36,426 nucleotides of DNA, taken from contig NZ_WJSP02000011.1 of NCBI RefSeq assembly GCF_009720255.1, positions 1 to 36,426 of the forward strand, in the 5' to 3' direction. Shown here one piece after another: positions 446-34,182 of this stretch. Made by a program: the position numbers and the translations under genes. Origin of the DNA: Agromyces humi (GTDB taxonomy: Bacteria > Actinomycetota > Actinomycetes > Actinomycetales > Microbacteriaceae). Every line of letters starts with the position of its first letter. Position 1 is the stretch's first letter. The notes under the pieces were generated by a model that was not told where the DNA came from, made no database searches, and worked only from the letters and a program-made list of their open reading frames with translations.

Positions 446-454
446 CCGCGCATG
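446..454 (+). promoter_or_regulatory. CATG-box promoter
   Basis: Exact CCGCGCATG. The standard offset puts +1 at C463, one of only three copies without a purine there (A462 is adjacent). It leads into a short leader with GAGGAGG before the gene at 492. Confidence 0.7.
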
Positions 455-491
455 GGTGTCTACTGACCGACCCCAACCCGAGGAGGACCAC

Positions 492-707
492 ATGGCCACT
501 GGAATCGAGAACATCCCCGTCGGAGGGCACACCATCCCGCTCGGCACCCCCGTCACCGTGACCAAGCAGGGGGTCCTGCAGCCGTGGGAGGGTGTGACGG
601 TGTTCCGGCACGACCGGAACCGCACCTACCGGCTCCACTTCCCGAACGACACCTATGTAACCGCACACGAAAACGAGCTCACCGTGATCGCCCCGGAGCC
701 CGCGTGA
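492..707 (+). CDS. Small protein, unknown function (71 aa)
   Basis: The ATG at 492 lies 5-6 bases after GAGGAGG. The GTG at 456 in the same frame lies upstream of the predicted transcript start and was not used. The product looks like a compact beta-rich domain (GGHTIPLGTPVTVTKQGV, RLHFPNDTYVTAHENELTV), similar to small SH3-like barrels, but I cannot name a family. Its stop overlaps the next start (GTGA at 704-707), so the two genes should be translated together from the box at 446. Confidence 0.85.
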   Translation: MATGIENIPVGGHTIPLGTPVTVTKQGVLQPWEGVTVFRHDRNRTYRLHFPNDTYVTAHENELTVIAPEPA

Positions 708-1066
708 CCGCGTCGACGCCCAAGGCTCGCGCGATCGAGCTTGGCTACAACGCCGGGTGGCGGTGCTCCGAGCGCGGCGGGTACAGCCTGTCGAACGCCT
801 GGACGAGCAACGGGCCCGAGGAGAACCGCGACATCTACCACCGCAAGGGTGGCAAAGGCAGCGGGGACGCATTCCTCGACGGCTACCTCGACCACGCTGC
901 CGAGCATGAGCGCGGCCAATCACTCCCGCGGCTCCTCGCGACGGTGACCGCGCGGGTGCACTCAGCGGGCGCAGCCGACGCCGTCTACACGTCATGGCCG
1001 ATGCCATACCCGGACGCCATGGCCGCCGCCGCGAAGATCCCCTGCTCGTGGATCGAAGAGGTCTGA
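704..1066 (+). CDS. Unknown protein (120 aa)
   Basis: The GTG start overlaps the stop of the preceding gene by four bases and has GGAG five bases upstream. The sequence has an aromatic N-terminal part (GYNAGWRCSERGGYSLSNAW) and an Ala-rich helical C-terminal part. No family is recognised. It is the last gene of a two-gene unit and is followed by a strong hairpin at 1083-1116, where transcription meets the convergent gene 1134-1889. Confidence 0.85.
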   Translation: MTASTPKARAIELGYNAGWRCSERGGYSLSNAWTSNGPEENRDIYHRKGGKGSGDAFLDGYLDHAAEHERGQSLPRLLATVTARVHSAGAADAVYTSWPMPYPDAMAAAAKIPCSWIEEV

Positions 1067-1082
1067 GGCCGACTTCACAGAC

Positions 1083-1116
1083 AAGCGGCGCCGGGGATCG
1101 TTCCCAGGCGCCGCTT
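1083..1116. terminator. Bidirectional terminator hairpin
   Basis: A perfect 10-bp inverted repeat (AAGCGGCGCC at 1083-1092, GGCGCCGCTT at 1107-1116) with a 14-base loop lies between the convergent genes ending at 1066 and 1134. It ends in TT on one side and, read from the other strand, also in TT. Confidence 0.8.
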
Positions 1117-1133
1117 CGATGTTGTCTCGGACG

Positions 1134-1889
1134 CTACTCGCGCGGCGCACCATTCGAGCAGCCGGCGCTGACGGTGAGCCCGGTGTCGACCGCGGCGGCA
1201 GCAGCTCGCTTCGCCGCCACCCGCTCCGCGAACGCAGCCTTCAACCGCAGGTACTCGTCGCTGTGCGTGTCACCCGACGAGACCGTCCCGCTGCTGGCGT
1301 AGGAGACCTCAGCGGCGTACCACCCGTCGTCGTCGGAGTCGTCGTAACCCCAATCGGCTTCCTGGGCTGCAGCCTCGGCCGCAGCGGCCGCCGCAGCTGC
1401 GGCAGCCGCCTCGGCTGCAGCTTGCTCAGCGGCGATCCGCTCCGCTTCCTTCCGGTCCCACTCGGCGATCTCGGCGCGAGCCTGGTCGACGGATGCTTGG
1501 AACCGGGCGACCGCTGCGGTAACCGCTGTGCCGACCTCGGCGCCGGCGGAGTCACGGGCGAGGGTCTCGTAGTCACCGAGGAGCGCATCGGCGCGAGCAT
1601 CACCGAGCTTCCCGCGGAGCTCAGCGGCGACGCCGTGAGCGGCTGCCGTGACCTCACCGACGTTCGTCCTCGCTGACACCAGTTGCGCGGCGGGCAGGTC
1701 GAACGACACCGACCCGAGACCCACATGTCCTCGGTTCGCGGCGATCGCGGCGACCCGCTCATTCGCGACGCGTTCCGTGTCCCAGTACGCGCCGGTGCTG
1801 AACAGCAGCCCGGTGAGGACGGCAGCGCCGGTCATCACCGTGGCCGCGCGGCGGGCGCGGAATCCGTTGGGTCTCACCAGGGCATCCAT
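1134..1889 (-). CDS. Membrane-anchored Ala-rich surface protein
   Basis: The product is 251 aa from the ATG at 1889, which follows GGAGG by eight bases; an in-frame ATG at 1904 overlaps that ribosome site. An Arg-rich start (FRARRAATV) and one hydrophobic segment at about residues 15-34 predict a type II signal anchor with the rest outside the cell. The exterior part is helical with a long Ala/Glu tract, then an acidic Asp/Ser/Tyr/Trp-rich stretch, and ends near a lone Cys (SAGCSNGAPRE). No exact CATG box precedes it; only a degenerate GCCGCATG lies on the minus strand near 1950-1957. It is probably regulated separately from its forward neighbours. Function unknown. Confidence 0.8.
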   Translation of the reverse strand: MDALVRPNGFRARRAATVMTGAAVLTGLLFSTGAYWDTERVANERVAAIAANRGHVGLGSVSFDLPAAQLVSARTNVGEVTAAAHGVAAELRGKLGDARADALLGDYETLARDSAGAEVGTAVTAAVARFQASVDQARAEIAEWDRKEAERIAAEQAAAEAAAAAAAAAAAEAAAQEADWGYDDSDDDGWYAAEVSYASSGTVSSGDTHSDEYLRLKAAFAERVAAKRAAAAAVDTGLTVSAGCSNGAPRE

Positions 1890-1966
1890 CGATCGAGCCT
1901 CCATGAAGTCTGCGGCCGCACCCGGAAGGGAGGCGGTCCGAAGGGGAGACATGCGGCAGCCAGGCC

Positions 1967-1975
1967 CCGCGCATG
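1967..1975 (+). promoter_or_regulatory. CATG-box promoter
   Basis: Exact CCGCGCATG. Predicted +1 is G1984, giving a 16-base leader with AGGAG before the TTG start at 2000. Confidence 0.8.
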
Positions 1976-1999
1976 ACCTGATCGACGACAGGAGACCCG

Positions 2000-2472: not shown

Positions 2473-2481
2473 CCGCGCATG
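2473..2481 (+). promoter_or_regulatory. CATG-box promoter, leaderless
   Basis: Exact CCGCGCATG. Predicted +1 is A2490, the first base of the start codon of the next gene. No ribosome site lies between box and ATG. Confidence 0.85.
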
Positions 2482-3112: not shown

Positions 3113-3121
3113 CCGCGCATG
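3113..3121 (+). promoter_or_regulatory. CATG-box promoter, leaderless
   Basis: Exact CCGCGCATG. Predicted +1 is A3130, the first base of the next ATG. Confidence 0.85.
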
Positions 3122-3129: not shown

Positions 3130-3444
3130 ATGACGCACACGACCCCGCTCACCGCATCGCAGCAGGCCGCCCTCGACGGTGAAGGCGGCCAGTTCACCGC
3201 CAAGATCGCCGCCGACGGGCACGTCGAGTTCGTCACCGCCGAAGGCGAGCTCCTCCCGTTCACCATCTGGGCAGGCTGGTCCAGCCTCCGCGGCGGCATC
3301 CCCGTCATCGCCGTCAACACCGGCCGCGAAGTTCGCGAAGCGGCGTGGATCGCCGCGGGCACCTGGGGTGATGAGATCGACCCGGTGATCCTCGTCGACG
3401 AGGACGACGTCGTGTACGACCCGGCGCGCGTCTACACGGGTTGA
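3130..3444 (+). CDS. Unknown protein (104 aa), leaderless
   Basis: The ATG is at the predicted transcript start and no ribosome site is present. The sequence alternates beta-type segments (GQFTAKIAADGHVEFVTAEGELLPF) with a short helix and ends in an acidic strand pair (VILVDEDDVVYDPARVY). No family is recognised. It is the only gene of its unit, as the next box follows at 3469. Confidence 0.8.
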   Translation: MTHTTPLTASQQAALDGEGGQFTAKIAADGHVEFVTAEGELLPFTIWAGWSSLRGGIPVIAVNTGREVREAAWIAAGTWGDEIDPVILVDEDDVVYDPARVYTG

Positions 3445-3468: not shown

Positions 3469-3477
3469 CCGCGCATG
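3469..3477 (+). promoter_or_regulatory. CATG-box promoter of the tdk unit
   Basis: Exact CCGCGCATG. Predicted +1 is G3486. The 35-base leader carries a 5-bp hairpin (CGCCG/CGGCG, 3489-3504) followed by GAGAAAGG and the tdk start. Confidence 0.8.
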
Positions 3478-3520: not shown

Positions 3521-4135
3521 ATGGCGAAGCTGTATTTCCGGTACGGGGCGATGAACTCCGGCAAGACCACCGCGCTGCTCCAGGCTGCGTACAACTACGA
3601 GGAGCGCGGCCAGCGGGTGCTGGTCGCGAAGCCCGCCGTGGACACCAAGGGTGACCGCCACATCGTCTCCCGCCTCGGCGTGTCCCGCGAGGTCGACTTC
3701 ACCGTGACCGCCGACGACTCCTTCCGCGACCGGTTCATCGAGCACAGCCACCTCGCCTCCGCGAACACCGGCCAGGACGTGAGCTGCCTCATCGTCGACG
3801 AGGCGCAGTTCCTCACCGCCGCCCAGATCGACGACCTCCTTCGCATCGCCCTTCTCGACGGCATCCCCGTCCTCGCCTACGGCATCCGCACCGACTTCCA
3901 GACCGCCGCGTTCCCTGGCAGCCGACGCCTGCTCGAGGTGGCGCACAGCCTCGAAGAGTTGAAGACCATCTGCCGTTGCGGATCCAAGGCGATGTTCAAC
4001 GGCCGGAAGGTCGACGGCCGGTACGTGTTCGACGGCGACCAGGTCGCGATCGACGGCGTCCGGGTCGAATACGAGTCCCTGTGCGGCAAATGCTACCTCC
4101 GCGAAAGCGGCGGGGTGCTCACCCCGGCAGCCTGA
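3521..4135 (+). CDS. tdk: Thymidine kinase (type II)
   Basis: The product is 204 aa, the usual size of bacterial and phage type II thymidine kinases, which phosphorylate thymidine with ATP in the salvage route to dTTP. The P-loop is GAMNSGKTT at residues 9-17. The Walker B/catalytic motif DEAQF is at 93-97, with E95 the expected general base. GIRTDF at 121-126 matches the family YGLRTDF motif. The zinc-binding lasso has C188/C191 (CGKC) and a slightly odd first pair, C151-R-C153 (CxC rather than CxxC). It leads a unit with the gene at 4182. Supplying dTTP for rapid DNA synthesis fits a large phage, though such genes also occur on chromosomes. Confidence 0.96.
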   Translation: MAKLYFRYGAMNSGKTTALLQAAYNYEERGQRVLVAKPAVDTKGDRHIVSRLGVSREVDFTVTADDSFRDRFIEHSHLASANTGQDVSCLIVDEAQFLTAAQIDDLLRIALLDGIPVLAYGIRTDFQTAAFPGSRRLLEVAHSLEELKTICRCGSKAMFNGRKVDGRYVFDGDQVAIDGVRVEYESLCGKCYLRESGGVLTPAA

Positions 4136-5212: not shown

Positions 5213-5221
5213 CCGCGCATG
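5213..5221 (+). promoter_or_regulatory. CATG-box promoter, leaderless
   Basis: Exact CCGCGCATG two bases after the TAA of the preceding gene. Predicted +1 is A5230, the first base of the next ATG. Confidence 0.85.
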
Positions 5222-5229: not shown

Positions 5230-5469
5230 ATGACCCAGACCCTCACGGCGGACACCGCAGCACCCACAGCAGACCGCGACGTCACCTTCATCGTCCGGCT
5301 CGACAACCACGACCGTGAGTCCTGCCCGGACAGTCCGTGGATCGCCGCGCTCGTCGGTTCGGGCGTGCCCGCGGGTGTCGGCACCACCCCTGAGGCGGCG
5401 TTGGCGGAGCTGCTCGCCGGTGTCAGCTGGTCGCAGGAGGTCGCGGAGCGTTCCGGCACGAGTGGCTGA
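5230..5469 (+). CDS. Small protein with HicB-like pattern (79 aa), leaderless
   Basis: The ATG is at the predicted +1. After a low-complexity Thr/Ala start, the core (TFIVRLDNHDRESCPDSPW ... GVPAGVGTTPEAALAELLAGV) follows the strand-strand-helix pattern of the HicB antitoxin partial RNase H fold, including the T-PEAALAE helix start. There is no HicA-like toxin beside it and no DNA-binding tail, so an antitoxin role is only a possibility. Confidence 0.8.
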   Translation: MTQTLTADTAAPTADRDVTFIVRLDNHDRESCPDSPWIAALVGSGVPAGVGTTPEAALAELLAGVSWSQEVAERSGTSG

Positions 5470-7012: not shown

Positions 7013-7021
7013 CCGCGCATG
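7013..7021 (+). promoter_or_regulatory. CATG-box promoter, long leader
   Basis: Exact CCGCGCATG. Predicted +1 is G7030. The 77-base leader before the gene at 7107 is the longest in the set and has short GC-rich inverted repeats. Confidence 0.75.
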
Positions 7022-7106: not shown

Positions 7107-7361
7107 ATGCCTCCGTACTGCGAGATCCACGGCCGGCACCACAGCTCACGCGAGTGCGAATACGAGATCGCTCTCGACCAGGCAGCCGCGCGCGCGGCGC
7201 GCGAGAAGGTGGACCGTGATGCCCGCATTGCCCGAGCCACCAAGCTCGGTCTCGCCGCCTACGCGACGGCGCACGGCGTCCCAGTCGACGACGTGAACCC
7301 GACCGACCTCGGCCTCCAGGAGACCATCGACCTCATGGTCGCAGAACTCGCGACCGCCTGA
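7107..7361 (+). CDS. Small putative metal-binding protein (84 aa)
   Basis: The ATG follows AGGAAGGGG. Residues 5-17 hold C5, H8, H11, H12 and C17 in a His/Cys-rich turn (YCEIHGRHHSSRECEYE), followed by an Ala/Arg-rich helix and a C-terminal helix (GLQETIDLMVAELATA). No family is recognised. It stands alone between the box at 7013 and the terminator at 7374. Confidence 0.8.
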   Translation: MPPYCEIHGRHHSSRECEYEIALDQAAARAAREKVDRDARIARATKLGLAAYATAHGVPVDDVNPTDLGLQETIDLMVAELATA

Positions 7362-7408: not shown

Positions 7409-7417
7409 CCGCGCATG
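7409..7417 (+). promoter_or_regulatory. CATG-box promoter, leaderless
   Basis: Exact CCGCGCATG directly after a terminator. Predicted +1 is A7426, the first base of the next ATG. Confidence 0.85.
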
Positions 7418-7425: not shown

Positions 7426-7809
7426 ATGAAGAACACCACCCTCCTCATCGGCGCCGGCAACACCATCAGTTACGACACCGTCACCACCAGCCACTACGAC
7501 CGGCTGGTCGACGCGGACCTCGGCGAGATCGTCGAGGTGATCGTCCGCGACACCCCGAAAGGCCCCCGCCGGTACGAGCAGGTGCACAAGGACAACATCT
7601 TCGCCGTCAACGGCAAGGACCTCCCGGCGCCGTCCTGGGAGCTCGTCGAGGTCGAGGAGTTCTACCTCTACAGCGTGTTCACCGGGAAGCCGGTCGCCGG
7701 CCGTGCCTGGGAGAGCTGCGAGGACGCCGAGAAGTTCCTCAACACCAGCGACGGGAAGTACGCGTTCGACATCCGCTCCGAGTTCCGATCCAACCTCATC
7801 GAGCTGTAG
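7426..7809 (+). CDS. Unknown protein (127 aa), leaderless
   Basis: The ATG is exactly at the predicted +1. The N-terminal half is beta-rich with a small barrel look (VDADLGEIVEVIVRDTPKGPRRYEQVHKDNIFAV), and the C-terminal half is aromatic and acidic (EEFYLYSVFTGKPVAGRAWESCEDAEKFL). No family is recognised. It is followed 12 bases later by the gene at 7822, probably in one transcript. Confidence 0.85.
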   Translation: MKNTTLLIGAGNTISYDTVTTSHYDRLVDADLGEIVEVIVRDTPKGPRRYEQVHKDNIFAVNGKDLPAPSWELVEVEEFYLYSVFTGKPVAGRAWESCEDAEKFLNTSDGKYAFDIRSEFRSNLIEL

Positions 7810-8257: not shown

Positions 8258-8266
8258 CCGCGCATG
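8258..8266 (+). promoter_or_regulatory. CATG-box promoter
   Basis: Exact CCGCGCATG. Standard +1 would be C8275; the usual leader start AGAAG begins one base later at 8276, as if the spacer were one base longer. Confidence 0.7.
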
Positions 8267-8306
8267 CATGTTGCCAGAAGCAACCCAACGCCCTCGGAGG
8301 ACGATG

Positions 8307-8702
8307 ATGCCCAGATTCAGCAGCAGCAAGCACACCACGCGGACCGCCGACCCCGCCCCGTGGCTCGCCTACGACGGCACCCGCACCGCCGAGAAGGTGT
8401 GGACCCAGCAGGCGGACGACCAGACGCTATGGGCGCCGTCCGTGTTCGCGCCGCGGCGCAAGTTCGAGGTGCCTCTGAACGACCCGGCGAACGAGGTGAT
8501 CGGCGGCTTCCGCGTCTTCCGTGAGGACGTCGCGGCCGCTCACCCGCACCTCGACCCGGTGGAGGTGCTCGCCGGCGCGGCCGCGGAGTTCCTCTTCTAC
8601 TCGGACGAGCCGGACTACACCGGCGACCCGGTGGAGCTCGAGCACGCCAAGTCGGTGCTCCGCCGGATCATCTCTGCGAAGGAAGCGGGCGTGTTCGCCT
8701 GA
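8307..8702 (+). CDS. Unknown protein (131 aa)
   Basis: Two ATGs are adjacent (8304, 8307); the second has ideal six-base spacing from CGGAGG. The N-terminus is basic (PRFSSSKHTTRTADP), followed by a mixed domain (KFEVPLNDPANEVIGGFRVF) and a helical acidic end (PVELEHAKSVLRRIISAKEAG). No family is recognised. Single-gene unit between boxes at 8258 and 8707. Confidence 0.85.
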   Translation: MPRFSSSKHTTRTADPAPWLAYDGTRTAEKVWTQQADDQTLWAPSVFAPRRKFEVPLNDPANEVIGGFRVFREDVAAAHPHLDPVEVLAGAAAEFLFYSDEPDYTGDPVELEHAKSVLRRIISAKEAGVFA

Positions 8703-8706: not shown

Positions 8707-8715
8707 CCGCGCATG
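8707..8715 (+). promoter_or_regulatory. CATG-box promoter
   Basis: Exact CCGCGCATG. Predicted +1 is G8724; a 32-base leader of the ACGAAAGG type precedes the gene at 8756. Confidence 0.8.
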
Positions 8716-9077: not shown

Positions 9078-9086
9078 CCGCGCATG
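9078..9086 (+). promoter_or_regulatory. CATG-box promoter with hairpin leader
   Basis: Exact CCGCGCATG. Predicted +1 is G9095; the leader has a CCGGC/GCCGG stem (9107-9111 with 9117-9121) followed by CGACCAGGAAG. Confidence 0.85.
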
Positions 9087-9142: not shown

Positions 9143-9241
9143 ATGGGATTCTCGCTCGCCGACTTCGCCGAACCAGGCGACAAGTTCACGGACTTCGTCA
9201 CGGGAGAGTCCCGCATCGTCCCCGAACCCGACGAGGCCTGA
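9143..9241 (+). CDS. Micro-protein (32 aa)
   Basis: ATG at 9143 follows CAGGAAGCAGGA at normal distance and a complete box plus hairpin leader. The 32-residue product (starting MGFSLADFAEPGDKF, ending PEPDEA) is acidic and ends at TGA 9239-9241. Its start resembles the MGFADDM start of the gene at 8756. Having its own promoter cassette argues that this very short gene is real. Function unknown. Confidence 0.65.
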   Translation: MGFSLADFAEPGDKFTDFVTGESRIVPEPDEA

Positions 9242-11694: not shown

Positions 11695-11703
11695 CCGCGC
11701 ATG
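11695..11703 (+). promoter_or_regulatory. CATG-box promoter with hairpin leader
   Basis: Exact CCGCGCATG. Predicted +1 is G11712; the RNA starts GAGAAGAAGCAGCGCCGG, with a GCCGG/CCGGC stem (11725-11729 with 11739-11743), then GAGGAG. Confidence 0.88.
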
Positions 11704-11763
11704 AATGTCTCGAGAAGAAGCAGCGCCGGCCCACGGGCCCGGCCGACATGAGGAGACACATTC

Positions 11764-12323: not shown

Positions 12324-12352
12324 GCGCGGCCGCGACCGAACCGCGGCCGCGC
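12324..12352 (+). terminator. Terminator hairpin fused to promoter
   Basis: A perfect 11-bp stem (GCGCGGCCGCG 12324-12334 with 12342-12352). Its 3' arm supplies the CCGCGC of the CATG box at 12347-12355. Confidence 0.85.
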
Positions 12353-12355
12353 ATG
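12347..12355 (+). promoter_or_regulatory. CATG-box promoter, leaderless
   Basis: Exact CCGCGCATG sharing six bases with the terminator stem. Predicted +1 is A12364, the first base of the next ATG. Confidence 0.87.
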
Positions 12356-12612: not shown

Positions 12613-12632
12613 GCGGGGCCGGCAGGCCCCGC
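12613..12632 (+). terminator. Terminator hairpin fused to promoter
   Basis: A perfect 8-bp stem (GCGGGGCC with GGCCCCGC, loop GGCA) directly after the stop. The 3' arm contributes to the box at 12629-12637. Confidence 0.8.
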
Positions 12633-12637
12633 GCATG
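12629..12637 (+). promoter_or_regulatory. CATG-box promoter
   Basis: Exact CCGCGCATG overlapping a terminator arm. Standard +1 is C12646, one of three copies without a purine there. Confidence 0.7.
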
Positions 12638-13378: not shown

Positions 13379-13387
13379 CCGCGCATG
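13379..13387 (+). promoter_or_regulatory. CATG-box promoter with hairpin leader
   Basis: Exact CCGCGCATG. Predicted +1 is G13396; the leader has a CCCGGC/GCCGGG stem (13408-13413 with 13419-13424) before GGAAGG. Confidence 0.85.
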
Positions 13388-14109: not shown

Positions 14110-14118
14110 CCGCGCATG
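14110..14118 (+). promoter_or_regulatory. CATG-box promoter with hairpin leader
   Basis: Exact CCGCGCATG. Predicted +1 is G14127; the leader has a GGCCG/CGGCC stem (14141-14145 with 14149-14153) and GAGGAG before a TTG start. Confidence 0.85.
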
Positions 14119-14546: not shown

Positions 14547-14570
14547 GGGGTCGGCGCGAGCGCCGGCCCC
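14547..14570 (+). terminator. Terminator hairpin fused to promoter
   Basis: GGGGTCGGCG (14547-14556) pairs over 10 bp with CGCCGGCCCC (14561-14570), with one U-G pair and loop CGAG. Its end overlaps the box at 14569. Confidence 0.8.
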
Positions 14571-14577
14571 GCGCATG
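14569..14577 (+). promoter_or_regulatory. CATG-box promoter with hairpin leader
   Basis: Exact CCGCGCATG. Predicted +1 is G14586; the leader starts GAAGAGACC and has a CGGCG/CGCCG stem (14598-14602 with 14606-14610), then GGGAGG. Confidence 0.85.
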
Positions 14578-17154: not shown

Positions 17155-17163
17155 CCGCGCATG
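17155..17163 (+). promoter_or_regulatory. CATG-box promoter with hairpin leader
   Basis: Exact CCGCGCATG. Predicted +1 is G17172; the RNA starts GAGAAGCAGTGCCGGA and has a GCCGGA/TCCGGC stem (17182-17187 with 17191-17196), then GGAAGG. Confidence 0.88.
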
Positions 17164-17772: not shown

Positions 17773-17781
17773 CCGCGCATG
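17773..17781 (+). promoter_or_regulatory. CATG-box promoter with hairpin leader
   Basis: Exact CCGCGCATG. Predicted +1 is G17790; the RNA starts GAGAAGAAGCAGCGCCGG, with a GCCGG/CCGGC stem (17803-17807 with 17813-17817), then GGAAGG. Confidence 0.9.
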
Positions 17782-18817: not shown

Positions 18818-18826
18818 CCGCGCATG
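18818..18826 (+). promoter_or_regulatory. CATG-box promoter with hairpin leader
   Basis: Exact CCGCGCATG. Predicted +1 is G18835; the RNA starts GAGAAGCAGCGCCGG with a GCCGG/CCGGC stem (18845-18849 with 18857-18861), then GGAGG and a TTG start. Confidence 0.9.
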
Positions 18827-19281: not shown

Positions 19282-19295
19282 CGGCCCGCAGGCCG
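19282..19295 (+). terminator. Short hairpin before promoter
   Basis: CGGCC/GGCCG 5-bp stem with loop CGCA, its 3' arm running into the CATG box at 19293. Confidence 0.5.
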
Positions 19296-19301
19296 CGCAT
19301 G
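19293..19301 (+). promoter_or_regulatory. CATG-box promoter with hairpin leader
   Basis: Exact CCGCGCATG. Predicted +1 is G19310; the RNA starts GAGAAGAAACAGC and has a GCCGGC/GCCGGC stem with loop CAT (19323-19337), then AAGGAG. Confidence 0.9.
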
Positions 19302-19675: not shown

Positions 19676-19684
19676 CCGCGCATG
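19676..19684 (+). promoter_or_regulatory. CATG-box promoter with hairpin leader
   Basis: Exact CCGCGCATG. Predicted +1 is G19693; its leader is nearly identical to that at 19310, with stem 19706-19711 with 19715-19720. Confidence 0.9.
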
Positions 19685-20396: not shown

Positions 20397-20417
20397 GGCG
20401 GGCAGGGTCGCCCCGCC
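20397..20417 (+). terminator. Terminator hairpin touching promoter
   Basis: GGCGGG (20397-20402) pairs with CCCGCC (20412-20417); an alternative GCGGGC/GCCCGC register reaches 20420. The stem ends inside the box at 20417. Confidence 0.65.
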
Positions 20418-20425
20418 CGCGCATG
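20417..20425 (+). promoter_or_regulatory. CATG-box promoter with hairpin leader
   Basis: Exact CCGCGCATG. Predicted +1 is G20434. The leader stem is GCCAC/GTGGC (20444-20448 with 20454-20458), a compensated change from the usual GCCGG/CCGGC. Confidence 0.9.
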
Positions 20426-22026: not shown

Positions 22027-22035
22027 CCGCGCATG
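22027..22035 (+). promoter_or_regulatory. CATG-box promoter with hairpin leader
   Basis: Exact CCGCGCATG. Predicted +1 is A22044; the RNA starts AGAAGAAGCAGCGCCGG with a GCCGG/CCGGC stem (22056-22060 with 22066-22070). Confidence 0.88.
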
Positions 22036-22506: not shown

Positions 22507-22515
22507 CCGCGCATG
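22507..22515 (+). promoter_or_regulatory. CATG-box promoter with hairpin leader
   Basis: Exact CCGCGCATG. Predicted +1 is G22524; the RNA starts GAGAAGAACTTG with a TCCGGC/GCCGGA stem (22541-22546 with 22550-22555). Confidence 0.87.
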
Positions 22516-22577
22516 AACGTGTCGAGAAGAACTTGACCGGTCCGGCACTGCCGGAACCCCTGCGGAAGGCGCACACC

Positions 22578-24177: not shown

Positions 24178-24186
24178 CCGCGCATG
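24178..24186 (+). promoter_or_regulatory. CATG-box promoter, short leader
   Basis: Exact CCGCGCATG. Predicted +1 is G24195; the 16-base leader GAACGAAAGGACCATC contains the ribosome site and no hairpin. Confidence 0.85.
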
Positions 24187-25189: not shown

Positions 25190-25198
25190 CCGCGCATG
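25190..25198 (+). promoter_or_regulatory. CATG-box promoter, leaderless
   Basis: Exact CCGCGCATG. Predicted +1 is A25207, the first base of the next ATG. Confidence 0.86.
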
Positions 25199-25580: not shown

Positions 25581-25589
25581 CCGCGCATG
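25581..25589 (+). promoter_or_regulatory. CATG-box promoter, short leader
   Basis: Exact CCGCGCATG. Predicted +1 is G25598; the leader GAGAAGAGACGAAGGAG keeps the usual 5' end but lacks the hairpin. Confidence 0.86.
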
Positions 25590-25620: not shown

Positions 25621-26151
25621 ATGACCATGACCATCACCACCATCAACGCCGGCCAGTCGCGGCGTCGCATTCCAGTGGAGTTCGGTGACGGCGACGTCCT
25701 GGACTACGAGCCGGACAGGTTCCACTGCCGTGAGGGTATCGCCGTGATCGAGAACCTCCCCAGCCGGGAGGGCGTGGAGGGGCGGATGACGCGCGAGAAC
25801 TTCGTCGTCGACACGTTCTGGGGCTCGGGCGACGACCACATCCTTAGCGAGGACGAGCTCGCCACCGCGACCGTTCGGTTCAACATCCACGACTTCCGCA
25901 AGATCGAGCCGGACGAGCGGTTCGCCGACTTCAGCAAGGACGACCGTGCCACCCTGACCAGGCAACACGGGAACATCGTCAGCCGGTACATCCGGATCGG
26001 CGCCGTCCCGGACCTCGCCACGATGCTCGAGAACGCCCTCCGCGAGGTGGTGGAGCGGGAGGCCGACATGGAGCACGCGGCCAGCCGTCTCGAGTCGGCG
26101 CGACGCCAAGCCATCGACCTGCTCAAGCAGCAGAGGAAGCAGCACCCATGA
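25621..26151 (+). CDS. Unknown protein (176 aa)
   Basis: GAAGGAG precedes the ATG at 25621. The N-terminal half is mixed (RRRIPVEFGDGDVLDYEPDRFHCREGIAVIENL), and the C-terminal half is a long charged helix (LATMLENALREVVEREADMEHAASRLESARRQAIDLLKQQRKQ) likely to form a coiled coil. No family is recognised. First gene of a three-gene unit with 26148 and 26333, all joined by four-base overlaps. Confidence 0.86.
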   Translation: MTMTITTINAGQSRRRIPVEFGDGDVLDYEPDRFHCREGIAVIENLPSREGVEGRMTRENFVVDTFWGSGDDHILSEDELATATVRFNIHDFRKIEPDERFADFSKDDRATLTRQHGNIVSRYIRIGAVPDLATMLENALREVVEREADMEHAASRLESARRQAIDLLKQQRKQHP

Positions 26152-26491: not shown

Positions 26492-26500
26492 CCGCGCATG
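26492..26500 (+). promoter_or_regulatory. CATG-box promoter, short leader
   Basis: Exact CCGCGCATG. Predicted +1 is A26509; the leader AACGAAAGGACCCCACC contains only the ribosome site. Confidence 0.85.
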
Positions 26501-26525: not shown

Positions 26526-26786
26526 ATGTTCGAACAGATCGCGTCCTACTACGACGGCTCCGGCACGTACCTGGTCACCCGGGATCGGGACATCCTCAAC
26601 ACCCTGATCAACGACGCTGAGCTCATCGAGGAGCGCCTCACGCGGCTCCCGGAATGGGACGCCGTCGAACACGACGACTGGGTGCTCACCGACCGCTTCG
26701 CATGCACGCCGGACGGCCCCGGCGGCAAGACCGTCGTGTGGATCGACGGCGACGCATACCTCGCGGAGCTGCTCCCGAAGCGCTGA
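26526..26786 (+). CDS. Unknown protein (86 aa)
   Basis: GAAAGGACC precedes the ATG. The sequence (EQIASYYDGSGTYLVTRDRDILNTLINDAELIEERLTRLPEWDAVEHDDWVLTDRFAC) combines a helix with a C-terminal beta part (KTVVWIDGDAYLAEL). No family is recognised. Single-gene unit. Confidence 0.83.
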   Translation: MFEQIASYYDGSGTYLVTRDRDILNTLINDAELIEERLTRLPEWDAVEHDDWVLTDRFACTPDGPGGKTVVWIDGDAYLAELLPKR

Positions 26787-26790: not shown

Positions 26791-26799
26791 CCGCGCATG
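26791..26799 (+). promoter_or_regulatory. CATG-box promoter, short leader
   Basis: Exact CCGCGCATG. Predicted +1 is G26808; the 18-base leader GAGAAGAAGGAGCACCCC merges the usual 5' end with the ribosome site. Confidence 0.87.
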
Positions 26800-26825: not shown

Positions 26826-27056
26826 ATGCTGATCTACGCGATCCACACCCCCGACCCGTCGGGCGCGCCGATGAACGAGACGGCCGCGTGCGAGGTGCAC
26901 CTGGTCGAGTACGACGCGGACGGGTACTCGATGGCCGCGGACGCGGACGACGCCCCGGAGAACCCGGAGTACACGGTCGTGGAGCGGCCCGAGGACAACG
27001 ACACCGTCTGCAACGTCTGCAAGGTCGAGGAGCTCGCCGGCAGCGGCCGACTGTGA
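26826..27056 (+). CDS. Small acidic protein with CxxC (76 aa)
   Basis: AAGGAGCACCCC precedes the ATG. The protein is very acidic (YDADGYSMAADADDAPENPEYTVVERPEDND) with C62-NV-C65 and C22 as possible metal ligands. No family is recognised. It ends four bases before the convergent stop of the membrane gene at 27061. Confidence 0.83.
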   Translation: MLIYAIHTPDPSGAPMNETAACEVHLVEYDADGYSMAADADDAPENPEYTVVERPEDNDTVCNVCKVEELAGSGRL

Positions 27057-27896: not shown

Positions 27897-27905
27897 CCGC
27901 GCATG
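27897..27905 (+). promoter_or_regulatory. CATG-box promoter with hairpin leader
   Basis: Exact CCGCGCATG. Predicted +1 is G27914; the RNA starts GAGAAGAGCGAT with a CCGGCT/AGCCGG stem around TCG (27926-27940), another compensated stem variant. Confidence 0.89.
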
Positions 27906-27958
27906 GATGTCCTGAGAAGAGCGATCCGGCTTCGAGCCGGCCGACGAACGGAGATCCC

Positions 27959-28450
27959 ATGACGACGAACTTAACCGCGGTCCGGCGGCGAGCTGCCGAC
28001 CTGCTCCGCGACTACCACGAGATCGTCGACGAGTCGGCTGCGTCGCTGACGACGAACGATGAGGAGTTCATCCGCCTGGCCGCGCAGGCCGAGACCCGTC
28101 ACCTCGCACGACTCGCCGCGCAGTTCGCAGCCCTCGCCGCGGACATCACCGGCAACCCCACCGACCCTGTCGAGCTCGTCATGGGCGTCCCGGACCGCCT
28201 CGATGCGGATCTCGACGACATCCCCGGCACTGGTGTGCACAGCGAGCAGGCGGACTTCGTGTTCGCCGGCGACGAGGAGCCCCGCGCGTCGGTGACGACG
28301 TGGATGGCGCTCGACGGCGCGATGGTCGTGCAGATCGACACGAACCTCGACGGCCTCGGCCTCGATCGGGTCCGGGTGAACGTCAACGACGGCGTCGTGT
28401 TCGACCAGGGCATCGAAACCGGCCGCGACTACGCAGAGGAGGTCCGCTGA
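27959..28450 (+). CDS. Unknown protein (163 aa)
   Basis: ACGGAGATCC precedes the ATG at 27959. A helical N-terminal half (VRRRAADLLRDYHEIVDESAASLTTNDEEFIRLAAQAETRHLARLAAQFAAL) is followed by a beta C-terminal half (ASVTTWMALDGAMVVQIDTNLDGLGLDRVRVNVNDGVVF). No family is recognised. First of three joined genes (28453, 28803). Confidence 0.86.
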   Translation: MTTNLTAVRRRAADLLRDYHEIVDESAASLTTNDEEFIRLAAQAETRHLARLAAQFAALAADITGNPTDPVELVMGVPDRLDADLDDIPGTGVHSEQADFVFAGDEEPRASVTTWMALDGAMVVQIDTNLDGLGLDRVRVNVNDGVVFDQGIETGRDYAEEVR

Positions 28451-29003: not shown

Positions 29004-29012
29004 CCGCGCATG
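29004..29012 (+). promoter_or_regulatory. CATG-box promoter, short leader
   Basis: Exact CCGCGCATG. Predicted +1 is A29021; the 15-base leader AACGAAAGGCCCCGC contains the ribosome site. Confidence 0.85.
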
Positions 29013-29035: not shown

Positions 29036-29296
29036 ATGAACAGCAACGTCACCCACCTCCCCTCCGTCCCCGCCGAGATCAACCTCCCGGCAGCTCCGTG
29101 GGCGGGAGAGCTCACCGACAACACCCTCGAGCGGCACATCGCGCTCGCACACCAGCAGCACCGGCAGGCGGTCAACGCCGTGAGCGCGGCAGCCTACTCG
29201 CTGGCCGCCGCCGAGCGCAGCGAAGCGTTCTGGGTGGCTCAGGCGGACGCACTCGAAGCCGAGGTGGCGCGACGAGCGATGGTCGTCGCAGCCTGA
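29036..29296 (+). CDS. Unknown helical protein (86 aa)
   Basis: GAAAGGCC precedes the ATG at 29036. After a flexible start the chain is one long Ala-rich helical region (LERHIALAHQQHRQAVNAVSAAAYSLAAAERSEAFWVAQADALEAEVARRAMVV), likely a helical hairpin or coiled coil. No family is recognised. It is the last gene of the forward run. Confidence 0.84.
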   Translation: MNSNVTHLPSVPAEINLPAAPWAGELTDNTLERHIALAHQQHRQAVNAVSAAAYSLAAAERSEAFWVAQADALEAEVARRAMVVAA

Positions 29297-29441: not shown

Positions 29442-29885
29442 TCAGGCCGTGGCGTGCTGCGGCAGCGCCGCCTGGAACCCGGCGACCACGCGGGCCGCCT
29501 CGAGGATCGTCAGGCGGCGGTGCTCGGCCGCTGCGACCGATTCCGGGTCGCCGTCGTACCGGTCGCCGGTCATGACAGCCCCGTCACCGTCCTGGTCGAC
29601 GGAGAGGATCCCGATCGCGTCGGCGATGTCCCAGTAGACGATGTCTGCTCCGGTGGCGGCGGCCTCGAGCATCGTCCTGGGCGCGACGCGGATGACGGTG
29701 TGGCGGTCGATTCTGCCGGGGAAGAGAATGCCGTCGCCGACGACCTTCCAGTCCTCCCAGTGGCGGGCGAGCTGGGTGAGCCAGTCGTCGGTGAACGCAT
29801 GCAGGTCGGTGACCTTCACATGGCCGACCTGCTGGTTGAAGAGGGCGGTGAGGGTGTTCGGTCTGGCGGTGGTGAGGGTGGGCAT
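29442..29885 (-). CDS. Unknown protein coupled to FtsW (147 aa)
   Basis: The ATG at 29885 overlaps the FtsW stop (ATGA), so it is translated with FtsW. The soluble sequence has a helical start (TALFNQQVGHVKVTDLHAFTDDWLTQLARHWEDWKVVGDG) and a mixed core (RHTVIRVAPRTMLEAAATGADIVYWDIADAIGIL). No family is recognised. The coupling invites the idea of a partner or modulator of the glycosyltransferase, but it lacks membrane or penicillin-binding features. Confidence 0.87.
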   Translation of the reverse strand: MPTLTTARPNTLTALFNQQVGHVKVTDLHAFTDDWLTQLARHWEDWKVVGDGILFPGRIDRHTVIRVAPRTMLEAAATGADIVYWDIADAIGILSVDQDGDGAVMTGDRYDGDPESVAAAEHRRLTILEAARVVAGFQAALPQHATA

Positions 29886-31234
29886 CAGCGGAGCTCCTGT
29901 TCAGGGGTGGCGGTGCGGGCGAAGGACATGGCGACACCGATGGCGAACATCGTGGTGAGCAGCGCGGTGCCGCCGGCGGAGATGAGTGGGAGAGGGACGC
30001 CGAGGATCGGCATCACGCCGAGGACGACGGCGATGTTCACCGCTGCCTGGCCGACCACCCAGACCAACACGACTGCTGACGCGGCTGTCCCGTACGGGGT
30101 GGTCGCGTTCGCCATCGCCCGGTACAGGAGGACGGCGAGGACGGCGAACAGGGCGAGGACGAGGGTGGCGCCGAGGATGCCGAGCTCCTCCCCGATGATC
30201 GCGAAGATGAAGTCGTTGTCGGCGGCCGGCAGCCATGACCATTTCGCGGTGGAGTTCCCGAGCCCGACACCGAAGATCCCGCCGTTCGCGAGAGCCCAGG
30301 TGCCGTGCTGGATCTGCCAGCAGTCGTCGGAGTTCGACTGGGTGCAGTCGGTGAGGAACGACGCGATGCGACGCATCCGGGATTCACTGGTCAGGGCGAA
30401 CACCGTGAACAGCAGCAGGCCGGCGGACACCGGGATGGCGAGGGTGCGGAGCCTGACACCGATGAGGAACAACGCCCCGAACAGCATCCCGGCCATCACC
30501 ATGACGGTGCCGAGGTCGCCGCCGAGGAGGACCAAGCCGATCGCGCCGCCGCCGGTGACGAGCACCGGGACGAGGCCTTGTTTCAGGTCGTTCAGCACAT
30601 GCTGTTTTCGGGAGACGATCAGGCCCAGCCAGAGGACCATCGACACCTTGATCGCTTCGGAAGGCTGGAACTGAACCGGGCCGAGGGCAAGCCAGTTCGT
30701 GTTCCCGCCGACCTCGATGCCGAGCGGGGTGAACACGACGAGCAGCTGCATGATGCAGGAGAGGATCATCGACGGCCACGCCGCTTTCATCCACAACCGC
30801 TCAGGGAGTCTCGAGGCGACGTACAGGACGGGAACGCCGATGAGGGCGAACACACCCTGGCGGAGGGACTGTTCGAAGAACCCGCCGTCCTCGATCTTCG
30901 ACTCCACCGACGAGCTCGACAGCACCATCACGAACCCGAACGCGACCATGAGGACGACCAGGCCGAGGAGCATGTAGTACGTCGAAGAGTCCGACAGGAA
31001 GAACCCGAGGGTCTTGTCACGGACGAGGAGGATGTGCCGGACCACCGGCGGCTGCCGGCGCTTTCTTGAAGCTGTGCGCGCGGGGCGGATGGGGCTGACC
31101 GTCGCCTGGCGCGGTGGTGCCGGCGGTGTGGTCCGGGCGGAGACGCCTCGTGCGGAGACGGTTCGAGGTGTGGTGGGACGCCGCCTGGTTGGAGTGGCCG
31201 CCGACGGTCGTCGCCGAGGGGTTGTCGAGGTCAC
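29885..31234 (-). CDS. ftsW: FtsW/RodA-family peptidoglycan glycosyltransferase
   Basis: The product is 449 aa from the GTG at 31234 and belongs to the SEDS family, integral membrane enzymes that polymerise lipid II into glycan strands with a class B penicillin-binding protein. After a basic Pro/Thr/Arg-rich cytoplasmic tail (about residues 1-75) come about ten hydrophobic segments. Family motifs are GNTNWL (177-182), FQPSEAIKVS (189-198), GLGNSTAKWSWLPAADNDFIFAIIGEELG (325-353; D341 aligns with the catalytic Asp region) and PLPLISAGGTALL (414-426). The WSWLPAADNDFIF block resembles Microbacteriaceae FtsW. The start was chosen because the predicted transcript begins at 31278, which excludes the ATG at 31309, and because GTG overlaps the stop of a short leader frame. 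No penicillin-binding partner is present in the window. Confidence 0.93.
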   Translation of the reverse strand: MTSTTPRRRPSAATPTRRRPTTPRTVSARGVSARTTPPAPPRQATVSPIRPARTASRKRRQPPVVRHILLVRDKTLGFFLSDSSTYYMLLGLVVLMVAFGFVMVLSSSSVESKIEDGGFFEQSLRQGVFALIGVPVLYVASRLPERLWMKAAWPSMILSCIMQLLVVFTPLGIEVGGNTNWLALGPVQFQPSEAIKVSMVLWLGLIVSRKQHVLNDLKQGLVPVLVTGGGAIGLVLLGGDLGTVMVMAGMLFGALFLIGVRLRTLAIPVSAGLLLFTVFALTSESRMRRIASFLTDCTQSNSDDCWQIQHGTWALANGGIFGVGLGNSTAKWSWLPAADNDFIFAIIGEELGILGATLVLALFAVLAVLLYRAMANATTPYGTAASAVVLVWVVGQAAVNIAVVLGVMPILGVPLPLISAGGTALLTTMFAIGVAMSFARTATPEQELR

Positions 31235-31286: not shown

Positions 31287-31295
31287 CATGCGCGG
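31287..31295 (-). promoter_or_regulatory. CATG-box promoter of the ftsW unit
   Basis: Exact CCGCGCATG on the minus strand. Predicted +1 is G31278, the first base of a GTG. With the forward box at 31302 it makes a perfect 10-base inverted repeat around ATGT. Confidence 0.83.
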
Positions 31296-31301
31296 GATGT
31301 C

Positions 31302-31310
31302 CCGCGCATG
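31302..31310 (+). promoter_or_regulatory. CATG-box promoter, divergent
   Basis: Exact CCGCGCATG on the plus strand, back to back with the ftsW box. Predicted +1 is G31319; the 23-base leader contains GAAGGAGG before the ATT start at 31342. Confidence 0.83.
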
Positions 31311-31341: not shown

Positions 31342-31857
31342 ATTTCCGAACTCATCGCCGACTCGTTGCTCGCCGCGCAGGAGCAGCTGTTCAAGGATCT
31401 CGCCGAGCACCAGCGCGTCGCCGGGATCACCGACGAACACGTCGCCGAACAGCTCGGCGTCGACGTCGAAATGGTGCCGGACATCGTCAACGGCCGGCAG
31501 GACCTCACCATGTCAGAGCTCCGGTACCTCGGCATCGCGCTCGAGGTGGCGATCGACTACGGCGTCCAGCATTCCCGCTCGAACACGATCGTCCTCGGCC
31601 GTCTCGCCGGCACGGAGGAGCTCGCCCGTCAGGCGGTCGCCCACGGAGTCCAGGACCGTCTGGACGGGGCAGATGTTGCGATCCACGCCCGCCAGGTGTC
31701 GACGGTGACCGACGAGTTCACGAAGACGCTGCTCACCGAACTGGCACGCCGCGGAGCACGGAACGTCATCGTCCGCGGGGCGTCAGCCGAGTTCCTCGCC
31801 CAACTGGAACGTCACCGGCACCCGTCGGTGCACGTGACGGTGCTCAGCGGCGCCTGA
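31342..31857 (+). CDS. HTH (XRE-like) protein, apparent ATT start (171 aa)
   Basis: GGAGG at 31331-31335 is six bases before ATT 31342; an in-frame TGA at 31327 rules out an earlier start, and the first usual start (TTG 31366) has no ribosome site. The N-terminal part has a Cro/C1-type helix-turn-helix pattern (ITDEHVAEQLGVDVEMVPDIVNGRQDLTMSELRYLGIALEV). The C-terminal part is an unrelated alpha/beta domain (RNVIVRGASAEFLAQLERHRHPSVHVTVL). It is divergent from ftsW across a shared palindromic promoter pair, a typical place for an autoregulator; the target is inferred. Confidence 0.85.
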   Translation: MSELIADSLLAAQEQLFKDLAEHQRVAGITDEHVAEQLGVDVEMVPDIVNGRQDLTMSELRYLGIALEVAIDYGVQHSRSNTIVLGRLAGTEELARQAVAHGVQDRLDGADVAIHARQVSTVTDEFTKTLLTELARRGARNVIVRGASAEFLAQLERHRHPSVHVTVLSGA

Positions 31858-32411: not shown

Positions 32412-32420
32412 CATGCGCGG
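32412..32420 (-). promoter_or_regulatory. CATG-box promoter
   Basis: Exact CCGCGCATG on the minus strand. Predicted +1 is G32403; the leader GACCACCTTCAGGGAGGAG carries the ribosome site. Between this box and the gene ending at 32501 only a short CCCC/GGGG hairpin (32496-32509) is seen. Confidence 0.84.
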
Positions 32421-32833: not shown

Positions 32834-32862
32834 CATGTTCCTTTCGATGCGTCAGAGCGTTG

Positions 32863-33243
32863 TCAGATGCGATCGGGCAGTGCGGATTCCCGGAGCTCGA
32901 GGGTCGCAGCACGGGCAGCGTCCGCGCGTTCCGCGGCGATCTTGTCCGCCAGCCACGTGGAGTGCAGGACGAGGTGCGCGGCGGCTTCGTTCGTGCGGAT
33001 CCCGATGGACGGGTGCCCGTCTGAGGCGATGCTGGTGGTGCTGGCGAGCTCGAGCTTGATGAGCGCGTCCATGTCGGGGTCTGCGATCGCGGGAGCAAGT
33101 TCGTCGGGGCTGACCATCTCGGCGGGCCGGCCGTCATCGAAGCCGATGCGGACGTTTTCACGACGCCAGTCGGCCCAGTGGACCGTGACGTTCTCGCCGC
33201 GGTAGTTGACCCGGAGGCCCGGGTACAGGTCGTCGTAGTCCAT
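32863..33243 (-). CDS. Unknown protein (126 aa)
   Basis: AGGAGCAGCG precedes the ATG at 33243. The N-terminal part is beta-rich (LRVNYRGENVTVHWADWRRENVRIGFDDGRPAEMVS), resembling small barrel domains, and the C-terminal half is helical. No family is recognised. It follows 33252-33596 by eight bases. Confidence 0.85.
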   Translation of the reverse strand: MDYDDLYPGLRVNYRGENVTVHWADWRRENVRIGFDDGRPAEMVSPDELAPAIADPDMDALIKLELASTTSIASDGHPSIGIRTNEAAAHLVLHSTWLADKIAAERADAARAATLELRESALPDRI

Positions 33244-33251
33244 CGCTGCTC

Positions 33252-33596
33252 CTACAGTTCGAGAGGGCCGGTGGCGAGGGCGGTGTGGTAGTCCGCCCAA
33301 CGGCCGAACGGGCCGCCCCAGGACGGGTCATCGCGTTGGGCGATCAGCTCGATGTCCGGCCGTCCGCCCCACGACCAGCTGGACGGGTTCTTCTCCAGGA
33401 TCGCGACGACGGTGGCGGTGCCGTTCTCACCGGCCTCCCACCACTTCTCACCGATGTGGTGGACGCGCGCGCCGACCTTCAACCCGCGGTGCTCGTCGAT
33501 GTCGACGTATCCGCGGTCTGTGAGCTCCTTGCGGTGCTTGGCGAGGATGGCGTCCGTGTCGTCGGGCGTGGCGGTGACCTGGTCGGTGTGCTTCAT
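33252..33596 (-). CDS. Unknown protein (114 aa), leaderless
   Basis: The ATG at 33596 is exactly the +1 of the minus-strand box at 33605. The sequence has a helical start (DAILAKHRKELTDRGYVDIDEHRG) and a barrel-like region (LKVGARVHHIGEKWWEAGENGTATVVAILEKNPSSWSWGGRPDIELIAQ). This region recalls the KVGDRV-type segment of the first gene in the window. No family is recognised. Confidence 0.86.
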   Translation of the reverse strand: MKHTDQVTATPDDTDAILAKHRKELTDRGYVDIDEHRGLKVGARVHHIGEKWWEAGENGTATVVAILEKNPSSWSWGGRPDIELIAQRDDPSWGGPFGRWADYHTALATGPLEL

Positions 33597-33604
33597 GCTC
33601 ACGA

Positions 33605-33613
33605 CATGCGCGG
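33605..33613 (-). promoter_or_regulatory. CATG-box promoter, leaderless
   Basis: Exact CCGCGCATG on the minus strand. Predicted +1 is A33596, the first base of the ATG, with the same 12-base offset seen on the plus strand. Confidence 0.86.
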
Positions 33614-33616
33614 AGG

Positions 33617-34138
33617 TCATGCTGGGCGGATCGTCCACCCGTCGGCGAGTTTCGCGCGGATGTTCAGGCCGAGGACGTTCTCCTGCCCGCCTTCGCGGGA
33701 CATCGGGCCGCGGATCAGGTGGACACCGTTGGTGAGCTCGACCTCGTCGTAGTCGTCGATGTCGTCGAGGACGGCGTTGTCGCCGTCCTCTCGGGTGGCG
33801 TGCTTCTTCACCACCCAGCGGCCGGTGAGCAGCGACCCGGGCTCGTGCCGGCCGTCCAAGAAGGTCGGGACGATCGCACCGGTCTTGATGTACGCCTCGT
33901 CGGCGAAGTTCGAGAGGACCGCCTCGAGCCGCAGGTCCGGGTCCTTGTCCGACGGCGTGTAGATCGTGAAGACGACCGTGATGTGCAGCGCGTACACGTC
34001 GGGGGTGACGTGCGGGTATAGGATGCCGGCCGACTGCGCGCGGAGCGTGATCACCTTGTTCAGCCGTTGCGCGGCGGCGAGGACCTTGTCCTCGCGTGGC
34101 TCGTCCAGCTCGAGGATGGCGACGACTTCGCGGAGCAT
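33617..34138 (-). CDS. Unknown protein (173 aa)
   Basis: GGAAGGACCATC precedes the ATG at 34138. The sequence alternates helices and strands (REVVAILELDEPREDKVLAAAQRLNKVITL; VYALHITVVFTIYTPSDKDPDLRLEAVLSNF; SLLTGRWVVKKHATR). No family is recognised. Single-gene unit from the box at 34174. Confidence 0.86.
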   Translation of the reverse strand: MLREVVAILELDEPREDKVLAAAQRLNKVITLRAQSAGILYPHVTPDVYALHITVVFTIYTPSDKDPDLRLEAVLSNFADEAYIKTGAIVPTFLDGRHEPGSLLTGRWVVKKHATREDGDNAVLDDIDDYDEVELTNGVHLIRGPMSREGGQENVLGLNIRAKLADGWTIRPA

Positions 34139-34173
34139 GATGGTCCTTCCGGAGGTGGGCTGTACGGGTGCAC

Positions 34174-34182
34174 CATGCGCGG
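34174..34182 (-). promoter_or_regulatory. CATG-box promoter
   Basis: Exact CCGCGCATG on the minus strand. Predicted +1 is G34165, giving a 27-base leader with GGAAGG. Confidence 0.84.

Follow-up and report, generated by a model that had tools for sequence, protein, structure and literature searches.

What reads a nine-base word that recurs ahead of gene after gene in a stretch of actinobacterial DNA? The stretch analysed here, 36,426 bases long and called the window throughout, is the entire contig C13 of an Agromyces humi genome (G000; 4.39 Mb in 812 contigs). The word, CCGCGCATG (the box), had been proposed from the letters alone to act as a promoter element that spans -17 to -9 and serves almost once per gene or small operon. 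Usage of that kind is seen in the window, and a recount bore out the 37 exact copies (33 on the plus strand and 4 on the minus strand; reversed word, n = 1), where 100 dinucleotide shuffles gave a mean of 1.14 and at most 5, in keeping with the single copy or so first expected by chance. The box probably forms the core, from -17 to -9, of promoters peculiar to a giant plasmid, which the host RNA polymerase would read together with a divergent sigma factor that the plasmid itself encodes.

Anatomy of the box promoter

Transcription had been predicted to start 12 bases after the C of CATG; in the window this base is a purine in 34 of 37 copies and the preceding base a pyrimidine in 36 of 37, both being found in 34 of 37. 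A start codon lies precisely at the predicted +1 for eight window boxes (seven ATG, one GTG). The claim that each box stands ahead of a gene held for 35 of the 37, which have a called start within 200 nucleotides on the same strand, and failed for two on the minus strand, 31295(-) and 32420(-).

The geometry was then described for 15 contigs of the genome, selected for carrying boxes (more may exist), which span 402,334 bases at a guanine-plus-cytosine (GC) content of 0.667-0.679 and hold 206 boxes, against 20 reversed words. The logo of these 206 boxes carries at most 0.06 bit at every position from -77 to -19, so the boxes of this plasmid have no -35 element; neither of the sigma-A hexamers, TTGACA and TATAAT, appears in the logo, and a sigma-28-type -35, TAA(A/C), at fixed spacing from GCCGA is absent. 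Position -1 is C or T in 194 boxes and position +1 is A or G in 195. A start codon falls precisely at +1 in 64 of the 206 (47 ATG, 17 GTG), and these were removed before pyrimidine–purine (YR) steps were counted, to avoid circularity; among the remaining 142 boxes, 123 have YR at -1/+1, and the other 15 offsets reach at most 44. The next called start lies within 200 nucleotides downstream of 183 boxes (at exactly 17 in 59 of these) and farther away in 23. Transcription starting at the predicted base would account for leaderless and leadered boxes alike. Boxes are not equally dense within genes: the 72 window genes, called by a script written for this analysis, contain none of the 37, and 23 of the 206 overlap a called gene on the 15 contigs. 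With start codons at +1 in one group and YR steps there in the other, the sequence makes the box almost certainly a promoter element at -17 to -9, as originally proposed.

The boxes of the window, with the gene that follows each, are:

446..454, plus, box; gene 492-707
1967..1975, plus, box; gene 2000-2464
2473..2481, plus, box; leaderless gene 2490-2786, ATG at +1
3113..3121, plus, box; leaderless gene 3130-3444, ATG at +1
3469..3477, plus, box; thymidine kinase gene 3521-4135 (Pfam TK)
5213..5221, plus, box; leaderless gene 5230-5469, ATG at +1
7013..7021, plus, box; gene 7107-7361
7409..7417, plus, box; leaderless gene 7426-7809, ATG at +1
8258..8266, plus, box; gene 8304-8702
8707..8715, plus, box; gene 8756-9040
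9078..9086, plus, box; gene 9143-9241
11695..11703, plus, box; gene 11764-12315
12347..12355, plus, box; leaderless gene 12364-12612, ATG at +1
12629..12637, plus, box; gene 12692-13048
13379..13387, plus, box; gene 13443-14090
14110..14118, plus, box; gene 14175-14534
14569..14577, plus, box; gene 14633-15076
17155..17163, plus, box; gene 17213-17485
17773..17781, plus, box; gene 17835-18761
18818..18826, plus, box; gene 18882-19274
19293..19301, plus, box; gene 19355-19660
19676..19684, plus, box; gene 19742-20392
20417..20425, plus, box; gene 20475-20927
22027..22035, plus, box; gene 22087-22452
22507..22515, plus, box; gene 22578-23012
24178..24186, plus, box; gene 24211-24717
25190..25198, plus, box; leaderless gene 25207-25536, ATG at +1
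25581..25589, plus, box; gene 25621-26151
26492..26500, plus, box; gene 26526-26786
26791..26799, plus, box; gene 26826-27056
27897..27905, plus, box; gene 27959-28450
29004..29012, plus, box; gene 29036-29296
31287..31295, minus, box; a GTG lies at +1, and the gene called next, 29885-31045, is 250 nucleotides off
31302..31310, plus, box; gene 31366-31857
32412..32420, minus, box; no called gene start within 200 nucleotides
33605..33613, minus, box; leaderless gene 33252-33596, ATG at +1
34174..34182, minus, box; gene 33617-34138

Two boxes on opposite strands stand back to back at 31287-31310, separated by six bases. By eye, many of the leadered genes in 11695-22580, and the stretch 27897-27958, have in common an extended 5' leader that follows the box, of the pattern GAGAAGAAGCAGCGCCGG ... 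GCCGGCCGAC ... GGAAGGA, apparently a repeated hairpin followed by a Shine-Dalgarno sequence. The gene at 29885-31045 (-) resembles, also by eye, one for an FtsW-like cell-division protein.

The box marks a probable giant plasmid

The whole genome holds 270 boxes and 103 reversed words. Outside the 15 contigs, in about 4.0 Mb, there are 64 boxes against 83 reversed words and thus no excess, so that the density is not that of the host DNA at large. Within the 15 contigs CCGCGCATG is the 9-mer that deviates most from second-order expectation (206 against 11.5), and the genome has 44 copies of the leaderless pattern CCGCGCATG-N7-CATG but none of the reversed control. The window appears to belong to one giant plasmid split across at least 15 contigs, which we infer to be a single replicon.

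When eight proteins of the replicon were run against Pfam, DnaE (carrying an intein), FtsZ, gyrase B and thymidine kinase were recognized; by eye there are, in addition, gyrase A, NAD ligase, a flagellar cluster and Cas genes. Among plasmids, the best relatives of DnaE lie on replicons of 418-608 kb from Paenarthrobacter, Curtobacterium and Pseudarthrobacter. Relatives of a primase-like protein, C179_1, turn up in 8 of 72,556 plasmid records, all from Curtobacterium, Arthrobacter, Pseudarthrobacter or Paenarthrobacter, and at 15 loci of named genomes (Leifsonia, Cryobacterium, Oerskovia, Curtobacterium, Rathayibacter, Arthrobacter, Sinomonas, Actinomyces, Microbacterium and Ornithinimicrobium). 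Reciprocal best hits with the plasmid's proteins number 255 for a Leifsonia contig, 148 for Curtobacterium pS16, 75 for Arthrobacter caoxuetaonis and 70 for Paenarthrobacter.

A phage origin was considered and rejected. A megablast search of 50,697 phage records with 20 kb of sequence found no match; DnaE matches 1384 phage and 2037 plasmid records, its best matches in both sets being giant plasmids of Arthrobacter and Curtobacterium kin, and a scan of viral contigs with DnaE found no relative. The replicon appears to be a giant plasmid rather than a phage.

Related replicons carry diverging boxes and a second promoter class

Four related replicons, from Leifsonia, Curtobacterium, Paenarthrobacter and Arthrobacter, were fetched whole, and each carries about 120-250 copies of its own box variants. 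These are CCGCGCATA in Curtobacterium pS16 (n = 121; expected 1.76), CCGCACACAT in A. caoxuetaonis (n = 133; expected 0.68), with 127 copies in Paenarthrobacter pYJN5-1 (expected 0.78), and, in the 701-kb Leifsonia contig, CCGCACATG (n = 128), CGCCACATG (n = 118) and CCGCGCATG (n = 71). In a 360-kb part of the Leifsonia contig, box words number 67 and 79, against 5.2 and 5.8 expected. No such word was found in a 43-kb piece of a Euzebya plasmid, and of the 15 named loci, each covered by a 23-kb piece, only some show a prominent family-like word. ATG stands at one fixed distance from the box in 38 of 121 copies in pS16, 57 of 133 in A. caoxuetaonis and 66 of 127 in pYJN5-1, and once starts are aligned, all five replicons show the CCGC of this first class (class I) at -17 to -14. 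Upstream extras vary: a CGGKGAG element precedes the box in the two Arthrobacter-type plasmids, CARWW precedes class I in Leifsonia, a weak C stands at -33 in Curtobacterium, and the present plasmid has none. The box is thus a family trait of these plasmids that diverges between replicons.

A second promoter class is represented here by CGCCGCATG (n = 48), with +1 two bases further on and 14 of 47 copies at 19 nucleotides from a called start; the single copy in the window lies inside a gene. Its counterparts are CGCCACATG in Leifsonia (35 of 118 at 19 nucleotides from a called start), CGCCGCATAG in Curtobacterium (n = 23, six at 18 nucleotides) and CTACGCATGT in the Arthrobacter types (n = 24 and 19). 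GCATG, ACATG or GCATAG is common to both classes in this, the Leifsonia and the Curtobacterium replicons, as if a single -10 reader served both; the second class may depend on the same sigma factor reading in a shifted register, or on a separate factor. A 20-kb stretch of the Leifsonia contig (300-320 kb, L165), perhaps a recent insertion, lacks the counted box words (CCGCACATG was not counted) and holds an extracytoplasmic function (ECF) sigma gene.

A divergent sigma-70-family protein as candidate reader

A search with Sigma70_r3 gave weak matches on contig C118 of this genome and, close to the primase gene, in Leifsonia and three Curtobacterium plasmids. The candidate occurs once here, at C118 2437-3294 (+), with an expect value (E) of 2e-86. 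Homologs of 278-293 residues, 26-31% identical to the Leifsonia protein, are also encoded by the Paenarthrobacter and A. caoxuetaonis plasmids; one is thus present in all four replicons fetched whole, close to the replication-primase gene there, and one lies within the 10-kb flanks at 6 of the 15 named primase loci. C118 is a 6.5-kb contig with a GC content of 0.672 and no box, and the primase contig of this genome ends within the next gene (C179_0), so membership of C118 in the plasmid rests on the gene order in Leifsonia.

The C118 protein passes the Pfam cut-off for Sigma70_r3 (25.9 against 25.3 bits). A profile of four sequences, searched against PDB sequences, placed sigma-28 (1rp3) first, at E 0.0015 over FliA residues 61-124, followed by an unrelated protein at E 0.1 and SigA chains at E 0.13-1.3. 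The model of the Leifsonia homolog, built from six sequences, is all-helical, and in a Foldseek search with 153 matches, the 50 listed all bear the titles of sigma factors or sigma–RNA polymerase complexes, aligned over 251-354 columns. The C118-type protein is probably a divergent member of the sigma-70 family. A host-type promoter was sought before the sigma operon and found in neither this genome nor pS16, and once in Leifsonia, against 0.4 by chance.

Sigma and box also co-occur beyond the replicons compared. Among 199 genomes of the host family, the sigma is found at E<=1e-10 in two, this one and G089, and CCGCGCATG-N7-CATG in 16, with 44 copies here, six in G089, four in G087 and one or two in each of the others; the two sigma-bearing genomes are therefore the two richest in the pattern. 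G089 is the Cryobacterium of the primase search and not a new family member, though the pattern search reached it blind; the sequence it shares with that named locus is the ground for taking the host family as Microbacteriaceae. Its six pattern copies all lie within about 22 kb around its sigma, and the 140 kb of its contig that were covered carry 20 boxes (none in two far pieces), of which 16 have YR and nine a start codon at +1. G087, which the pattern search by itself picked out, contains 12 boxes within 60 kb (YR in 11, start codon at +1 in nine); five of this plasmid's proteins have a match there, and one stretch resembles the sigma's C-terminal end. Contig C2 of G087 (L201-L203) is accordingly another element with an identical box and a sigma remnant.

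Several observations weigh against this assignment. The 15 contigs were chosen by box content among the contigs listed. Of the nine other family members, seven match Sigma70_r3 below the cut-off and two not at all, and in two of the seven it is the C-terminal part that matches; one of the ten members has no Pfam match and one has unrelated matches only, while region 2 is matched in none of the ten and region 4 weakly in three. The Leifsonia model is of moderate confidence (predicted local distance difference test score, pLDDT, 73.4; predicted template-modelling score, pTM, 0.41), and among the Foldseek matches listed E is never below 0.001 and template-modelling (TM) scores are 0.14-0.32 (query TM-scores 0.19-0.28), so that the helices agree in order rather than in domain arrangement. 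Oerskovia (L149) has a sigma homolog with no family word prominent in its 23 kb, and Microbacterium (L157) has one with another word. Sigma-A-like factors are also encoded on the Paenarthrobacter, Pseudarthrobacter and A. caoxuetaonis plasmids and on the Cryobacterium contig; given these, and the CGGKGAG element of the two Arthrobacter-type plasmids, the replicons may not all share one reader. Finally, an in-frame stop interrupts the G089 sigma and what G087 retains is a remnant; the elements in both genomes may be decaying.

On homology, gene order, conservation and co-occurrence, the plasmid's sigma is nevertheless the most likely reader. The host core RNA polymerase would be directed to the boxes by the divergent sigma-70-family protein encoded at C118 2437-3294 (+), and at least five flagellar operons on the plasmid have sigma-28-type promoters instead of the box.

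Alternative readers

That the plasmid's flagellar sigma-28 (FliA) was co-opted plasmid-wide and reads the box is unlikely, even though it is the sole Sigma70_r2 match on the 15 box contigs, where it lies in the flagellar cluster. The sigma-28 -10 element is GCCGATAA, which the Curtobacterium box resembles, and the flagellar region of C223 (13.7-40.3 kb) has five boxes, one before a csrA-like gene and two at 168 and 206 nucleotides before a fliM-like operon (gene names assigned by eye). Five flagellar operons here, however, bear TAAC-N15/16-GCCGA instead (a sixth match precedes the primase gene), pS16 is free of boxes at 332,840-369,099, the site of its flagellar genes, and the Paenarthrobacter plasmid has boxes without a FliA-type gene. 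The separate sigma-28 promoters and the box-free pS16 cluster make FliA improbable as the reader. The TAAC-N15/16-GCCGA pattern was not found in pS16 either. The C223 cluster (L016-L018) has its own sigma-28, and both the Leifsonia contig and the Curtobacterium plasmid contain homologous clusters.

Equally improbable is recruitment of the host sigma-A holoenzyme to the box by a DNA-binding activator of the plasmid, such as a WhiB-like protein. A WhiB gene does lie near the primase in Curtobacterium plasmids, its best match here being on contig C68, but the box occupies the place of a -10 or extended -10 element and no TANNNT is present, and a BLAST comparison (1e-4) of the pS16 WhiB with the proteins called in the Leifsonia, Paenarthrobacter and A. 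caoxuetaonis replicons found no match.

We give still less credence to an RNA polymerase of the plasmid's own, or of phage type. Compact promoters without a -35, in many copies, are as for phage polymerases, and the box promoter is compact in this way, from -18 to about +8. Yet T7-type polymerase matched in none of five genomes or records, in a weak search whose controls were silent too; DFDGD is found in none of 544 called proteins and DFDGE in one, of 172 residues; and a sigma-like protein is present instead. Least probable of all is a translation or RNA element like the start-associated sequences of phages: the box precedes genes, but the distance to the called start is exactly 17 (59 of 206) or variable whereas that to the YR step is fixed in both groups, and by eye a Shine-Dalgarno-like sequence follows the box in many leadered genes.

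Other proteins were tried as the reader and dropped. Neither the helicase–sigma fusion nor the free sigma-A-like factor of the Arthrobacter-type plasmids turned up on the 15 contigs, pS16 or the Leifsonia contig; such a factor is present on the Cryobacterium contig, and by eye these factors are close to host SigA in their DNA-reading regions. A search for a hidden sigma among reciprocal best pairs returned FliA only (148 pairs and 290 scored comparisons with Curtobacterium; 244 pairs tried with Leifsonia, of which 231 were scored); it missed the candidate sigma because the copy in this genome sits on a box-free contig. W01 557 is by eye of LuxR type, C445_49 occurs in 1241 plasmid records, many of them Klebsiella, and C112_51/52, without a Pfam match, look relaxase-like and coupling-protein-like by eye. 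A further 22 proteins were discarded by Pfam or PHROGs, and another eight were dropped besides. W02 273 is a sigma-70 domain protein confined to one plasmid, and Leifsonia 376 and 437 (ECF, small sigma) have no relative at that place here.

Sigma-related genes of other kinds were also noted on the related plasmids. A fusion of sigma-70, an SF2 helicase and an HA domain is encoded on two Arthrobacter-type giant plasmids (L046:12199-15171 (-) and L045:13143-16112 (-)), and pYJN5-1 has a second, lone sigma-70 domain protein (L134:8175-9137 (-)) in which Pfam recognizes region 3 but neither region 2 nor region 4.

Comparison with known systems

The plasmid pBS32 of Bacillus subtilis is 84 kb, smaller than the plasmid described here. 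It is reported to encode SigN (ZpdN), a divergent sigma with a plasmid regulon and a promoter consensus of its own (PMC6751061), and so resembles the present replicon in pairing a plasmid-borne divergent sigma (a candidate here) with many plasmid promoters of one consensus. SigN promoters have -35 and -10 elements (PMC6751061), whereas the 206 copies here have no -35, include start codons at +1 and belong to a diverging family of replicons. The Bifidobacterium megaplasmid pMP7017 likewise has a repeated, plasmid-specific promoter motif in an actinobacterium, 34 bp long, lying over the -10 element and absent from bifidobacterial chromosomes; it numbers 19 motifs with a TATACT -10 and is read there as a transcription-factor site on ordinary promoters (PMC10832533), and it differs in sequence from the box.

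Phage T4 late promoters are likewise reported to combine an element-encoded specificity factor, gp55, with the host RNA polymerase, as the candidate here would, but belong to a phage and require the sliding clamp and gp33 (PMC7892883, PMC2988020). The start-associated sequences of cluster K mycobacteriophages are short repeats before many genes of an actinobacterial mobile element, but they lie typically 3-7 bp before the start codon, have a Shine-Dalgarno core and are proposed to act in translation (PMC3203893). By comparison, 204 of the 206 boxes begin at least 17 nucleotides before the next called start (two are nearer), and the box contains no AGGAG. Sigma-28 (FliA) promoters share a GC-rich -10 region with the box and, unlike it, have a -35 (TAAC here).

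Searches of open-access literature listings brought up no family of plasmids in which each replicon bears about 120-250 private promoters; relative to these searches, the scale, the lack of a -35, the leaderless use and the divergence across a plasmid family appear new, SigN/pBS32 being the nearest known case. We lean towards the wider view that a family of Micrococcales plasmids of 375-700 kb is transcriptionally autonomous, with a highly divergent sigma encoded near the replication genes, two private promoter classes for most operons, many of them leaderless, and co-divergence of sigma and promoter that would make each plasmid lineage orthogonal to its host and to its relatives. Such autonomy would account for the ability of giant plasmids to live in different hosts independently of host promoters, and would supply a natural series of sigma–promoter pairs for studying how promoter specificity evolves. 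The box can serve as a signature for locating contigs of such plasmids in draft genomes, and boxes could provide orthogonal promoters for high-GC actinobacteria.

Other features of the replicon

A 1023-residue protein encoded beside dnaE was compared with the helicase–sigma fusion of the Arthrobacter type and is unrelated to it; from weak P-loop and DUF3854 matches, the latter presumably to be read as TOPRIM, it looks like a primase-helicase. LAGLIDADG and intein domains are present in DnaE (L033:5488-10857), and LAGLIDADG in an FtsK-like protein (L023:4272-10385 (-)). Contig C68, with cell-division genes noted at L029:8564-9970 (-), encodes FtsZ (by Pfam) and, by eye, a penicillin-binding protein, and contig C778 (L014/L038) carries genes that by eye resemble a type I CRISPR-Cas set.

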